NCBI GenBank assembly: GCA_947460065.1
Contig: CANHGF010000007.1
Coordinates: 1 to 19,033, forward strand
Source of the DNA: Comamonadaceae bacterium
GTDB taxonomy: Bacteria; Pseudomonadota; Gammaproteobacteria; Burkholderiales; Burkholderiaceae_C
DNA: 19,033 nucleotides
Direction of reading: 5' to 3'
The position numbers were made by a program, and so were the translations under genes. Positions 235-5,640 of the stretch are shown here, piece by piece (position 1 is the first letter of the stretch; every line of letters starts with the position of its first letter). Below the pieces are notes generated by a model. That model ran no database searches. It saw only the letters and a list, made by a program, of their open reading frames with translations, and had not been told where the DNA came from.

Positions 235-3021
235 TCAAAGGTTGGGCGCCAGCAGCCTTTCGAGTTCGCGCAGGTCGCGGCCGCGGCGGCGGGCCTGGTC
301 TTGCAATTGGTCTTCACCGATCTTGCCCACATTGAAGTAGACCGACTCGGGATGGCTGAGGTAGAAGCCGCTGACGCTGGCCGCTGGCGTCATGGCCAGG
401 CTCTCAGTCAGATCCATGCCGATTTCGCGCGCTTGCAGCAGTTCGAACATGTCCTGCTTGATGCTGTGGTCCGGGCAGGCCGGGTAGCCGGGCGCCGGCC
501 GAATGCCGCGGTATTTCTCGGCAATCAGATCTTCAGGACTCAGGGCCTCCTCAGCCGCGTAGCCCCAGAGGTCTTGGCGTACCCGCAGGTGCAGGGCTTC
601 AGCAAAGGCCTCGGCCAAGCGGTCGGCCAGAGCTTTGAGCATGATGGCCGAATAGTCGTCGTTATCGTCGAGGAAGTACTTTTCTTTCTTGTCCGAGCCT
701 ATGCCTGTGGTCACCGCAAACAGGCCGATATGGTCGGCGATGTGAAAACCGTCGGCGCCTTCGGCACCCGCCGCGCCTGCGCGCGCGGCCGCCACTTCAG
801 CCGGCAGCACTTTGGGCGCGATGAAGTCAGCCAGGCAGCGGTTAGGTCGGACCCGGCCGTCGGGGCCGCTGCTTTTTTCGGCCTGCTGGCGCAGTCCGTA
901 CCAAGTCATCGCCACCTGCCGTCGGCTCTCATCGGTGTAGATCTCGATGTCATCGCCAACGCTGTTGGCGGGCCAGAAACCGACTACCGCGTTGGCGCTC
1001 AGCCAGCGCCCTTCGATCAGCCGTCGCAGCATGCGCTGGGCATCACCATAGACGCGCACGGCCTCGGCGCCCACCACCTCGTCCTTGAGGATGGCCGGGA
1101 AGGGGCCGGCCAGATCCCAGGTCTGGAAGAAGGGGGTCCAGTCCATGTAACGGGCCAAGTCACTCAGGTCGTAATTGCGGAACACCCGCCGACCCAGGAA
1201 TTTGGGCGCCGGCGGGCGGTAGTGCACCCAGTCCATTGCGGTGGCGTTGGCCCTGGCCTTGTCCAGCGAGACCACGGGCGTTTGGCGCTTGCCGGCATGC
1301 AAGGCGCGCACCTTGTCGTAGTCGGCATTGAGTTCGGCGATGTACTGCGCCGCTTGATCACTCAGCAGGCCTTGGGCCACGCTCACGCTGCGTGAGGCAT
1401 CGGGCACGTAGACCACAGGGCCTTCGTAGTGCGGCGCGATCTTGACGGCGGTATGCACCCGGCTGGTGGTGGCCCCGCCGATGAGCAGGGGGATTTTGCG
1501 AATCCTGAAATGGTCGTCCTTCTGCATTTCGGCGGCGACGTACTGCATTTCCTCCAGCGAGGGCGTGATCAGCCCGGACAGGCCGACGATGTCGGCGCCC
1601 TCAACCTTGGCGCGCGCCAGGATCTCGTGGCAGGGCACCATCACGCCCATGTTGACCACTTCAAAGTTATTGCACTGAAGCACGACGGTGACAATGTTCT
1701 TGCCGATGTCGTGCACATCGCCCTTGACGGTGGCGATGACGATCTTGCCCTTGGTCTTGACGTCTTCGCCGGCGGCCTCCTGCTGGCGTTTTTCTTCTTC
1801 AATATAGGGAATGAGGTGTGCGACGGCCTGCTTCATCACCCGCGCGCTCTTGACCACCTGTGGCAAAAACATCTTGCCCTGGCCAAACAGGTCGCCCACC
1901 ACATTCATGCCGTCCATCAAAGGGCCTTCGATCACATGCAAAGGCCGTCCGCCGTCTGCGCGCAGCAGTTGCCACATCTGCTCGGTGTCTTCGGTGATGA
2001 ACTCGTTGAAGCCGTGCACCAGGGCATAGCTCAGACGCTCGCGCAGGGGCAGGGCGCGCCACTCGTACTTTTTGCTTTCGTCGCGGGCCCCGCTCTTGGC
2101 GGTTTCAGCAATTTCAATCAGGCGCTCGCCCGCATCCGGGCGCCGGTTGAGCACCACATCTTCAACCCGCTCGCGCAGTACGGGTTCGAGCTCGTCATAC
2201 ACGCCGACCATGCCGGCGTTGACGATGCCCATGTCCATGCCGGCCTGGATGGCATGGTAGAGAAACACGGTGTGTATCGCTTCGCGCACCGGATCGTTGC
2301 CGCGAAAGGAAAAGCTGACATTGGACACGCCGCCCGAGACCTTGGCGCCGGGCAGGTTCTGCTTGATCCAGCGGGTGGCTTCGATGAAGTCGACCGCGTA
2401 GTTGTCGTGCTCCTCGATGCCGGTGGCTATTGCGAAAATATTGGGGTCGAAGATGATGTCTTCCGGCGAAAAGTCGACCTCGTCGACCAGTACCCGGTAG
2501 GCGCGCTGGCAGATCTCGATCTTGCGCGCATAGGTATCGGCCTGGCCTTTTTCGTCAAAGGCCATCACCACAGCGGCCGCGCCGTAGCGGCGGATCAGCT
2601 GGGCCTGGCGCTTGAACTCATCGATACCCTCTTTCATGCTGATCGAGTTGACGATGCCCTTGCCCTGAATGCAGCGCAAGCCCGCCTCGATGACGCTCCA
2701 CTTGGAGCTGTCGATCATGATGGGAACGCGGGCGATGTCGGGCTCAGAGGCGATCAGGTTCAGAAAGCGCACCATGGCGGCCTGGCTGTCGAGCATGGCC
2801 TCGTCCATGTTGATGTCGATGATCTGGGCGCCGTTTTCCACCTGCTGGCGGGCTACGGCCAGGGCTTGCTCGTAGTCGCCGTTGAGAATCAGGCGGGCAA
2901 AGGCCTTGGAGCCGGTGACATTGGTGCGCTCGCCAATGTTGACGAACAGGCTGCCCTGGCCTACAGAGACGGGCTCGAGGCCAGAAAGACGCAGAGGAGG
3001 CGGGGTAAGGGGCGTGGACAT
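235..3021 (-). CDS. metH: Methionine synthase, pterin/cobalamin/activation half (split MetH, part B)
   Basis: This 928-aa protein corresponds to the C-terminal three modules of cobalamin-dependent methionine synthase, which transfers the methyl group of methyltetrahydrofolate via cob(I)alamin to homocysteine. The pterin-binding module comes first, with [14 protein letters not shown] near residue 20. Next is the cobalamin module with DVHDIGKN, where His437 is the lower-axial cobalt ligand. Last is the AdoMet-dependent reactivation module with [13 protein letters not shown]. The homocysteine/zinc module is absent here and is encoded separately at 4472-5518. The start at 3021 is chosen because GGTGAG lies just upstream and because the upstream in-frame ATG at 3108 falls inside the SAH riboswitch. 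Expression is probably controlled by that riboswitch. The enzyme is cytoplasmic and should work together with part A. Confidence 0.96.
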
Positions 3022-3023
3022 AG

Positions 3024-3120
3024 GCTCACCTGGTTTGCAAGGTGAGCGTGGTTGCACCGGGTCTGGCCCTTTCCCCAAGCCTGGCCCTATCGCGGTGATG
3101 GGCTGCAACGCTCCTTGGGG
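3024..3120 (-). promoter_or_regulatory. S-adenosylhomocysteine (SAH) riboswitch with Shine-Dalgarno-masking hairpin
   Basis: In the metH direction the leader begins CCCCAAGGAGCGTTGCAG and continues with CCAGGCTTGGGG and GGTGCAACCACGCTCACC, matching the conserved segments of SAH riboswitches known from ahcY and metH leaders in proteobacteria. Visible pairings are P1, CCCCAAG (3120-3114) with CTTGGGG (3079-3073), and a long-range helix of GAGCG+TTGC with GCAA+CGCTC (3055-3052, 3048-3044) carrying a CCA bulge. In the alternative state, GCTCACC (3047-3041) pairs with GGTGAGC (3030-3024), which contains the ribosome-binding site. The two states share GCTC, so SAH binding should free the Shine-Dalgarno: a translational ON switch. 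The motif match is seen directly; the mechanism is inferred from the family and the pairings. Confidence 0.92.
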
Positions 3121-3128
3121 AGATGCTT

Positions 3129-3134
3129 ATTTTA
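3129..3134 (-). promoter_or_regulatory. Candidate -10 box of the metH part B promoter
   Basis: TAAAAT on the minus strand matches the -10 consensus at five of six positions. It would place the transcription start near 3121-3123, right at the first base of the riboswitch P1 helix. No good -35 is visible at 16-18 bp (TAGCCC at 17 bp). The spacer contains the 12-nt perfect palindrome GCCCCAAGGGGC at 3139-3150, which could be an operator or chance in GC-rich DNA. Support comes mainly from the fit with the riboswitch boundary. Confidence 0.4.
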
Positions 3135-3166
3135 GCGGGCCCCAAGGGGCGGGGCTAGGCGCAGCT

Positions 3167-4462
3167 TCAGGCTGCCAGCAAAACTTGGTGCAGCGCGTGC
3201 GCCGCCGCCAATGTAAGCGCATCGCCCGCCACCGGCCCGACCACTTGCAGGCCCAAGGGCATGCCCTGGGCCGTGTGGCCTGCCGGGATGTTGACCGTGG
3301 GGGTGTGAAGCGCGGTCCAGATGCGGCAAAAAACCGGATCACCGGTGTTGTCCAGGCCCAGTGGCGCCGCGCCCGGGGCGCTGGGCGTGAGCAGCACGTC
3401 GACATCTGTGAATACATCGGCCAGCTGCGCACGGCAGCGCGCGAGCCAGGCCTGCGCTTGATCGTATTGCGCGAGCGTCACGGCCAGGCCGGCGTTCATG
3501 ATGCCCTGCAAGCGTGGGCTTAGGCGCTCAAAGTGCTGCAGGCGTTCATAGGCCAGGCTTTGCGCTTGCTCGGCCAATTGAACCTGGGTCTGGGCCTGCA
3601 CCAAGTGTTCAAAATCGGCGGGTAAGCGCAGCTCCTGCAGCGCCATGCCACTTGTGCGAACGATGCGTGCTGCCGCGTTGTGCATCGCCGCTTGCGTTTC
3701 GGGCAGCGCGTGTGCCCATTCATAGGTTGGGCAAAGGCCCACCCGCAATGGGCGGCCGAGCCCTTGGGCCAGGGGGCGCACCAGCCAGTCCGTGCGACCG
3801 CTCAATGCAGCGGCGAACAGGGCAGTATCAGGCACGCTGCGGGCCAGGGTGCCTACCGTGTCCAGGGTGTCCGACAAGGGTTTGACGCCGGCACGGTTGA
3901 TGCCGCCAAAGCTGGGCTTGAAGGCCACTACGCCGCAGTACGCCGCCGGGCGGGTGAGCGAGCCTGCGGTCTGTGTGCCCAAAGCCAAGGGCACCATGCC
4001 ATCGGCGACTGCAGCGGCCGAGCCCGAAGACGAGCCCCCGGGTGTGTGCGCCAGGTTGTGCGGGTTGCGGGTTTGGTTGGGCTGGAAGGTGGCGAATTCG
4101 GTGGTGACGGTCTTGCCGATGAGCACCGCCCCGGCGGCACGCGCCAGCGCCACGCAACTGGCATCGTGGGCCGGCTGATGGCCCGCATAGATGGGCGATC
4201 CATAGGTGGTGGGCATGCCGGCGGTGGCGATCAGGTCCTTGATGCCGACCGGCAGGCCATGCAGCAGGCCTTGGTGGGCGCCTTGATCGAGTGCGCGCGC
4301 ACGCGCCAAAGCGGCCTGGCCGGCCACATGGCTCCAGGCTTGTATCTCGCCCTCACGGGCATCGATGCGCGCCAGGCAGTCGCGTACCAGATCTTCGGCG
4401 CGCAGGCTGCGCTGGGCCAATTGCTCGGCCGCCTCGCAAGCGCTCAACAGGTGGTGTGCCAT
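3167..4462 (-). CDS. Amidase-signature-family enzyme
   Basis: This 431-aa cytoplasmic protein belongs to the amidase-signature hydrolases, which cleave carboxamides or act in amidotransfer. The Ser-cisSer-Lys triad is visible: Lys75 in GLPVGIKD, Ser144 in TPGGSSSGSAAA and the nucleophile Ser168 in GTQTAGSLTRPA. The start at 4462 follows the metH part A stop by 9 nt and has an AGGA-like ribosome-binding site, so the two are very probably co-transcribed. It separates the two halves of methionine synthase. It is shorter than typical GatA and has no gatB or gatC beside it, so a GatA role is unlikely. The substrate cannot be read from the sequence. The reaction class is secure; the biological role and any link to methionine metabolism are unknown. 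Confidence 0.9.
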   Translation of the reverse strand: MAHHLLSACEAAEQLAQRSLRAEDLVRDCLARIDAREGEIQAWSHVAGQAALARARALDQGAHQGLLHGLPVGIKDLIATAGMPTTYGSPIYAGHQPAHDASCVALARAAGAVLIGKTVTTEFATFQPNQTRNPHNLAHTPGGSSSGSAAAVADGMVPLALGTQTAGSLTRPAAYCGVVAFKPSFGGINRAGVKPLSDTLDTVGTLARSVPDTALFAAALSGRTDWLVRPLAQGLGRPLRVGLCPTYEWAHALPETQAAMHNAAARIVRTSGMALQELRLPADFEHLVQAQTQVQLAEQAQSLAYERLQHFERLSPRLQGIMNAGLAVTLAQYDQAQAWLARCRAQLADVFTDVDVLLTPSAPGAAPLGLDNTGDPVFCRIWTALHTPTVNIPAGHTAQGMPLGLQVVGPVAGDALTLAAAHALHQVLLAA

Positions 4463-4471
4463 CGTCCTGGT

Positions 4472-5518
4472 TCAGGCCGCTTCGCGGTAAAACGGGCCCG
4501 TGTGCAGGGGCCGCACTGCCTGATGGGCGACTGCCTTGCCGATGGCGGCAATATGCTCGGGCGTGGTGCCGCAGCAGCCGCCAACGATGTTGACCAGCCC
4601 TTCGGCGGCGAATTCATGCAGTAGGCGGCTGGTGACTTCCGGGGTTTCGTCAAAGCCGGTTTCACTCATGGGGTTGGGCAGGCCTGCATTGGGGTAGCAG
4701 GAAATGAAGGTGTCGCCGGCCACCTTGGCCAGCTCCTGGATGTAGGGGCGCATCAGCGCAGCGCCAAGCGCGCAGTTGAGGCCGACGGCCAGCGGGCGGG
4801 CGTGGCGCACGCTGTGCCAGAAGGCGCTGACCGTCTGCCCGCTCAGAATGCGACCGGATGCGTCGGTCACGGTACCGCTGATGATCAAGGGCAGGCGCTC
4901 GCCGGAATGCTCGAAGTACTCGTCGATCGCAAACAGCGCAGCTTTGGCATTGAGTGTGTCAAAAATGGTCTCGACCAGCAGCAGGTCGCTGCCGCCCTCG
5001 ACCAGAGCCTGGGTCTGTTCGTAATAGGCCTGGCGCAGCTCCTCGAAGTGGGTGTTGCGCGCCCCCGGGTCGTTCACATCCGGGCTGATGCTGGCGGTCT
5101 TGGGCGTGGGGCCCAGGGCGCCGGCCACAAAGCGGGGCCGCTCGGGGGTGGAGAATTTGTCGCAGGCCGCGCGGGCGATGGCGGCCGAGGCTCGGTTCAT
5201 CTCCACCGCCAAATCGGCCATGTCGTAGTCGGCCTGGGCCACGGTGGTGGCGCCAAAGGTGTTGGTCTCGATCAGGTCGGCGCCAGCGGCCAGATAGCCC
5301 TCATGGATGTCGCCGATCACCTGCGGCTGAGTCAGGCTGAGCAGCTCGTTGTTGCCTTTGACGTCCTTGTGAAAGTCTTTGAAGCGCTCGCCCCGGTATT
5401 GGGCCTCCGACAGCCTGAGGCGCTGGATCATGGTGCCCATGGCGCCGTCAAGGATGAGCAGGCGTTGGCGCAGCAGCTCGGGCAGGGCTTGGGCGCGGGT
5501 ATAGGCTGGAGCAGACAT
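4472..5518 (-). CDS. metH: Methionine synthase, homocysteine-binding half (split MetH, part A)
   Basis: This 348-aa protein is a stand-alone homocysteine S-methyltransferase module that binds zinc-activated homocysteine and accepts the methyl group from methylcobalamin. The N-terminal [10 protein letters not shown] motif starts near residue 22. The three zinc-ligand cysteines are Cys249 in GLNCALGA and Cys315/Cys316 in [11 protein letters not shown]. It corresponds to the first module of full-length MetH; the partner modules are in the gene at 235-3021, beyond an amidase. The start at 5518 is chosen because homologous sequence begins soon after, although the frame stays open to 5638. No Shine-Dalgarno is visible. 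TACAAT (5526-5531) lies 7 nt upstream, hinting at a leaderless transcript. A separate betaine or S-methylmethionine methyltransferase is possible but less likely given the partner nearby. Confidence 0.93.
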
Positions 5519-5525
5519 GGGCGCG

Positions 5526-5531
5526 ATTGTA
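5526..5531 (-). promoter_or_regulatory. Candidate -10 box (TACAAT) immediately before metH part A
   Basis: TACAAT matches the -10 consensus at five of six positions and sits 7 nt before the ATG, which would start transcription at or next to the start codon. No convincing -35 is present at the usual distance. It lies in the 122-nt gap shared with the divergent rhodanese gene. Confidence 0.35.
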
Positions 5532-5640
5532 GGTAGCCCGATAGGCAGGCGCACCTTTTGGCCGGGCCGCGCCCGGGCGCTGCAGGCCGGCCCGGCATGC
5601 TCGACAATGGATGCTTGTCTGCGCCGCCACACCCTCACGC

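Follow-up and report, generated by a model that had tools for sequence, protein, structure and literature searches.

SAH riboswitches (RF01057) were reportedly first described by Wang et al. in 2008, as ON switches of ahcY. The passages available from Leyn et al. 2014 (PMC4239095) place MetH in the SAH riboswitch regulon as a Comamonadaceae-specific member, and give neither the expression platform nor the half of MetH that is controlled. A different family, the SAM/SAH riboswitch (RF01727), also responds to SAH and involves the Shine-Dalgarno (SD) sequence, as described in the accessible part of PMC10622847, and it occurs upstream of metK in Rhodobacterales according to the same portion of PMC4239095.

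The window, the whole 19,033-nucleotide stretch of Comamonadaceae DNA analysed here, carries an SAH aptamer 5' of a gene of the SAM cycle, metH part B, which lies directly downstream (Table 1). We consider it highly likely that this RF01057 element switches translation of metH part B ON, as an original prediction made from the letters of the sequence had proposed; the covariance-model match, two mutually exclusive helices, a hairpin that covaries in relatives, a -10 box and the absence of a terminator-like site in 2900-3300 all support that reading. By covariance model the aptamer is the same as that of the ahcY riboswitches, it belongs to the same pathway, and ON logic is predicted here too. 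The two differ in target, which here is metH part B, and in that an aptamer arm is predicted to pair directly with the SD, whereas most ahcY leaders hold the corresponding hairpin well upstream of the start codon. Because MetH has been counted in the SAH regulon since 2014 (PMC4239095), both the class and the target are known and the window represents a further member, for which a likely mode of control and a start codon are now supplied.

Table 1 Features of the window and tandem aptamers of the order. Positions refer to the window; tandem aptamers are given by locus.
Feature	Position	Strand	Basis or remark
SAH riboswitch aptamer (RF01057)	3037..3122	(-)	covariance-model match
P1 helix, 7 bp	3121-3115 with 3078-3072	(-)	RF01057 alignment
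Internal hairpin inside P1	3102-3097 with 3091-3089 and 3087-3085	(-)	RF01057 alignment
Long-range (pseudoknot) helix, possible pairing	3113-3105 with 3055-3044	(-)	duplex -9.7 kcal/mol
Predicted SD-sequestering hairpin, 8 bp, 8-nt loop	3047-3040 with 3031-3024	(-)	folding, covariation
Shine-Dalgarno sequence AGGTGAG	3025..3031	(-)	sequence reading
-10-like box TAAAAT	3129..3134	(-)	sequence reading, conserved position in relatives
metH part B, 928 aa from ATG 3021	235..3021	(-)	domains: folate-binding, cobalamin-binding, activation
metH part A, homocysteine S-methyltransferase domain	4472..5638	(-)	no SAH aptamer before it in window
Amidase gene between metH halves	3167-4462	(-)	ORF and domain reading
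Tandem SAH aptamers	L272 853-1083; L273 899-1101; L274 1484-1263; L275 1488-1225; L276 1524-1240

The covariance-model search that had been suggested as a check of the class assignment matched the minus strand with a score of 49.8 bits and an E value of 1e-6, where the gathering score is 37, covering model positions 1-78 with every marked pair standard. It was the only Rfam match in the whole window, where RF01727 gave none at its own gathering score, and the same RF01057 search returned zero matches in 14 control genomes. All three conserved segments that had been expected can be read on the minus strand: the core GGAGCG-UUGC, CCAGGCU and GCAAC..CGCUCAC is present together with P1 in an alignment with 22 relatives, and the 7 bp foreseen for P1 are borne out by the RF01057 alignment. 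A long-range pseudoknot helix is a feature of SAH riboswitch crystal structures, and a duplex calculation recovered the nine-pair helix anticipated here, interrupted by a 3-nt bulge, a result that speaks for possible pairing and not for structure. P1 is absent from the best fold of 3122-2990, for which the folding programs used cannot form a pseudoknot, and the stability of the whole leader (3122-3010) is ordinary (z -1.30; 24 of 200 shuffles fold at least as well). On the covariance-model evidence, the element is confirmed as a genuine SAH riboswitch and an ordinary member of its class, whose predicted on/off hairpin is clean and conserved; judging from that class, it would bind SAH and prefer it over SAM.

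Elements of this class are widespread among relatives, being present in 146 of 150 genomes sampled from the family, most of them with two copies, in 37 of 41 from the genus and in 101 of 120 from the order. In the source assembly, which is 79% complete, we found neither a second SAH element nor a match to the AhcY family; given that completeness and the missing AhcY match, a count of one element says little.

The SD is predicted to be sequestered by pairing of GCUCACCU (3047-3040) with AGGUGAGC (3031-3024). The hairpin had been foreseen to cover the SD and to end 2 nt before the ATG, and does both, but T3040 and A3031 pair as well, which turns the 7 bp and 10-nt loop assigned to it into 8 bp and a loop of 8 nt. 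Since the four bases 3047-3044 are common to this hairpin and the long-range helix, the two are mutually exclusive. Their computed energies are -12.2 kcal/mol for the hairpin alone and -9.7 kcal/mol for the long-range helix as a duplex, and in the ligand-free ensemble of 3122-2990 the hairpin dominates, with pair probabilities of 0.91 to 1.0. Measured against dinucleotide shuffles of the linker, SD pairing in the window gave p = 0.015; linker shuffles gave p <= 0.05 in 48 of the 65 metH leaders scored (79 minus nine without an exact anchor motif and five duplicates).

To mimic the SAH-bound aptamer, the motif CGCUC was withheld from pairing, a manipulation that does no more than remove five bases. 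In the window this reduced the cost of opening the SD from 12.4 to 5.0 kcal/mol. Across 45 metH leaders the mean dropped from 11.0 to 4.3 kcal/mol; 42 leaders showed a decrease of at least 1 and none an increase of that size. Part of this fall is built in by construction because the five bases belong to the hairpin. The 45-leader tests exclude metH leaders that lack a start or whose start lies at least 48 nt from the anchor. The mutually exclusive helices and the lower SD opening cost therefore predict a translational ON switch. Transcription would most likely begin at the aptamer; when SAH is absent, GCUCACCU would pair with AGGUGAGC and hide the SD, and when SAH is bound, CGCUC would be kept in the long-range helix of the aptamer, so that the lower half of the hairpin is lost, the SD is freed and initiation at 3021 becomes possible. 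In this way, high SAH would yield more of the folate/cobalamin half of methionine synthase, which would help to consume the homocysteine made from SAH. Both the direction of regulation at metH part B, adopted from the known class, and the size of its effect are predictions.

For comparison, a set of metH and ahcY leaders was assembled; 80 named metH-B loci supplied part of it, and genomes of the family, genus and order supplied the rest. A model based on 23 of these leaders served to locate the aptamers. The family and genus leaders come from the matches listed, and strong matches are over-represented in the sample. A script took the first in-frame ATG of each leader as its start codon, a choice that is doubtful in a few cases (e.g. 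L074, L169, L131, L207, L213). Of 101 unique metH leaders, the 87 in which both hairpin arms could be anchored were used to count covariation, the other 14 being left out. The first base beyond CTCACC is paired in 75 of these 87 leaders, against 59.7 expected if the positions were independent, and the second in 63, against 37.4; at the second outer pair, T-A occurs 21 times and G-C 36 times, versus two and three for the mixed combinations. Kinship among the leaders inflates these counts. When linkers were swapped among 45 metH leaders, pairing stood at -15.15 for a leader's own linker and -14.35 for swapped ones (0 of 5000 swaps as good), and the reversed-linker control showed no difference (z -0.6). 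Restricted to the outer six tail bases alone, the swap test was flat (z -0.5; 1479 of 5000), and hence the metH covariation signal stems from few positions.

In 42 of 64 metH leaders, 1-4 nt separate the end of the best helix from the start codon, but in 15 of the 64 the distance is at least 19 nt, so the direct SD design is not universal. Among the same-genus metH leaders in the matches listed, 27 of 29 carry a GGTGAG-like SD arm directly before the start, and in the remaining two the scripted start falls inside that arm.

A TAAAAT box had been placed 9 nt upstream of P1; the box is there, though at a distance of 7 nt. Hexamers of the form TAnnnT with at least five of six matches to TATAAT recur at a near-constant distance 5' of the aptamer in 69 of 71 metH leaders, where base shuffles lead one to expect 1.9, and the same rule holds for 62 of 69 ahcY leaders (0.9 expected, again from base shuffles). 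No full sigma-70 promoter match was found in 2900-3300. The near-constant spacing of the -10 box from the aptamer indicates that the transcript very probably starts at the aptamer.

An SAH aptamer at this position could instead act on transcription, through intrinsic or Rho-dependent termination, and not directly on ribosome access. Two ahcY leaders of the order, L272 and L273, build an aptamer arm into a terminator-like stem of 13 bp with T's behind it, and the class can therefore be wired for termination. At metH part B, however, the partner of the aptamer arm is the SD itself, adjoining the ATG, and no terminator-like site occurs in 2900-3300, on which ground a terminator mechanism was ruled out for this leader; we regard an action on transcription as improbable. 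Slightly less credible still is a decayed or non-switching aptamer, a relic beside which the hairpin would simply fix a low level of translation. The unexceptional stability of the whole leader would fit such a relic, as would a bit score below that of many relatives (up to 71.3 among the matches listed), yet the RF01057 match is full-length and without a broken pair, the hairpin covaries in relatives, and both the -10 box and the SD arm are conserved.

The aptamer region might also be coding sequence, translated from 3108 and resembling the Rfam family by accident. The original prediction had dismissed an in-frame ATG at 3108 as the true start; the codon there is in fact TTG, but a start at this position is indeed unlikely because in-frame stops interrupt the stretch from the 5' end of the aptamer to the start codon in 35 of 74 metH leaders. 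Although the frame is open over this stretch in 39 of the 74, including the window, where it runs uninterrupted from TTG 3108 to ATG 3021, the coding reading was rejected on the stops in the others; the RF01057 match and the well-spaced SD of ATG 3021 also speak against it, and we give it next to no weight.

If SAH does switch on translation of metH part B, it would set the level of the B half apart from that of the A half. Set against the full-length models, part B covers MetH from about residue 320 onward. Its best-matching named relative is a Polaromonas, with 83% identity in the best segment, and the organism is therefore probably a member of the Comamonadaceae close to Polaromonas. Upstream sequence was present in 76 of the 80 named metH-B loci, and the four truncated upstream (L051, L075, L079, L107) were left out of the context counts. 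A riboswitch stands directly 5' of part B in 46 of the 76 loci, two of them with weak scores (L043, 22.4 bits; L045, 21.4 bits), and before part A in one (L063), while 29 have none. For 25 of these 29, the end of part A lies in the range from 134 nt ahead of the part B start to 20 nt beyond it; part A was not found in the available flank of the other four. The riboswitch occupies the 113-166-nt gap between the halves in L035, L046, L061 and L067. In this 76-locus sample, SAH control thus accompanies part B being its own unit. Flanks of up to 3 kb around the 80 named loci yielded no relative of the intervening amidase above 45% identity. In the locus with a riboswitch 5' of part A (L063 1-71, Comamonadaceae bacterium OS-4), the SD hairpin is compensated, as GCTCACT/AGTGAGC.

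The ahcY leaders of the same family are arranged differently, the best helix with the aptamer arm lying at least 13 nt before the start in 67 of 68 (one ahcY leader without an exact anchor, and duplicates, were dropped). In these leaders, covariation links the aptamer tail CCRCNNN to NNNGYGG, a distal arm located 5' of the ahcY SD (e.g. L012, L030, L122, L178). Across 75 ahcY leaders, tail and arm pair at -10.92 kcal/mol with their own partner and at -7.42 kcal/mol when swapped (z -13.8; 0 of 5000), with z -8.3 over the 35 unique tail types, and all seven positions are paired in 35 of the 75, against a mean of 5.45 when swapped. A reversed-sequence control gave z -4.2, so kinship accounts for part, but not most, of this signal. 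Between the distal arm and the ahcY SD, own versus swapped pairing gave z -4.0; this candidate third helix, which would be the closing step of a relay, we leave as weak because the reversed control reached z -2.7 and the 35 unique tail types only z -2.3.

Withholding CGCUC lowered the mean SD opening cost of the ahcY leaders from 5.17 to 3.88, with a change of at least 1 downward in 39 of 75 and upward in two; L164, whose start is mis-set, was excluded from this and from the relay tests. Covariation of the anti-aptamer hairpin was not measurable in ahcY leaders, where 1065 of 2000 swaps were as good and the helix hardly varies. A relay platform at ahcY is possible on these patterns of pairing: the aptamer tail, when free, would pair with the distal arm, which could otherwise cover the ahcY SD.

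Two SAH aptamers in series were found in five of the 120 genomes of the order, and all ten exceed the RF01057 gathering score. The downstream gene is ahcY in four of these loci, the fifth (L276) being without classification. In the two that were scanned, L272 and L273, it is the first aptamer that runs into the 13-pair terminator-like stem, using its own arm, and T's follow.

Neither relay nor tandem descriptions were found in the available portions of the literature searched, which included PMC4239095, PMC10907184, PMC10622847, PMC3766115 and PMC2864571, the founding papers lying outside this set. The second covarying helix at ahcY and the tandem SAH aptamers, both located outside the window, are possibly new. 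One aptamer class may thus be wired gene by gene, with direct SD pairing at metH part B, a relay at ahcY and tandems with a terminator, a tentative proposal about which our doubts slightly outweigh our confidence. Were it true, the SAM cycle would draw gene-specific SAH responses from interchangeable platforms, which would be new as far as the literature searched, exclusive of the founding papers, shows. Pairing of an aptamer arm with the SD is a short and direct expression platform that is easy to test, and comparison of metH with ahcY leaders makes the wiring of one aptamer to several genes directly testable.

The more distant metH starts include those of L066, L071, L174 and similar leaders, which lie about 50-60 nt downstream of the aptamer. 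In these leaders, the GGTGAG arm falls within an inverted repeat rich in GC; the far arm of the repeat could pair with GAGGCCGCC adjoining the ATG, and metH leaders of this type look like another relay.
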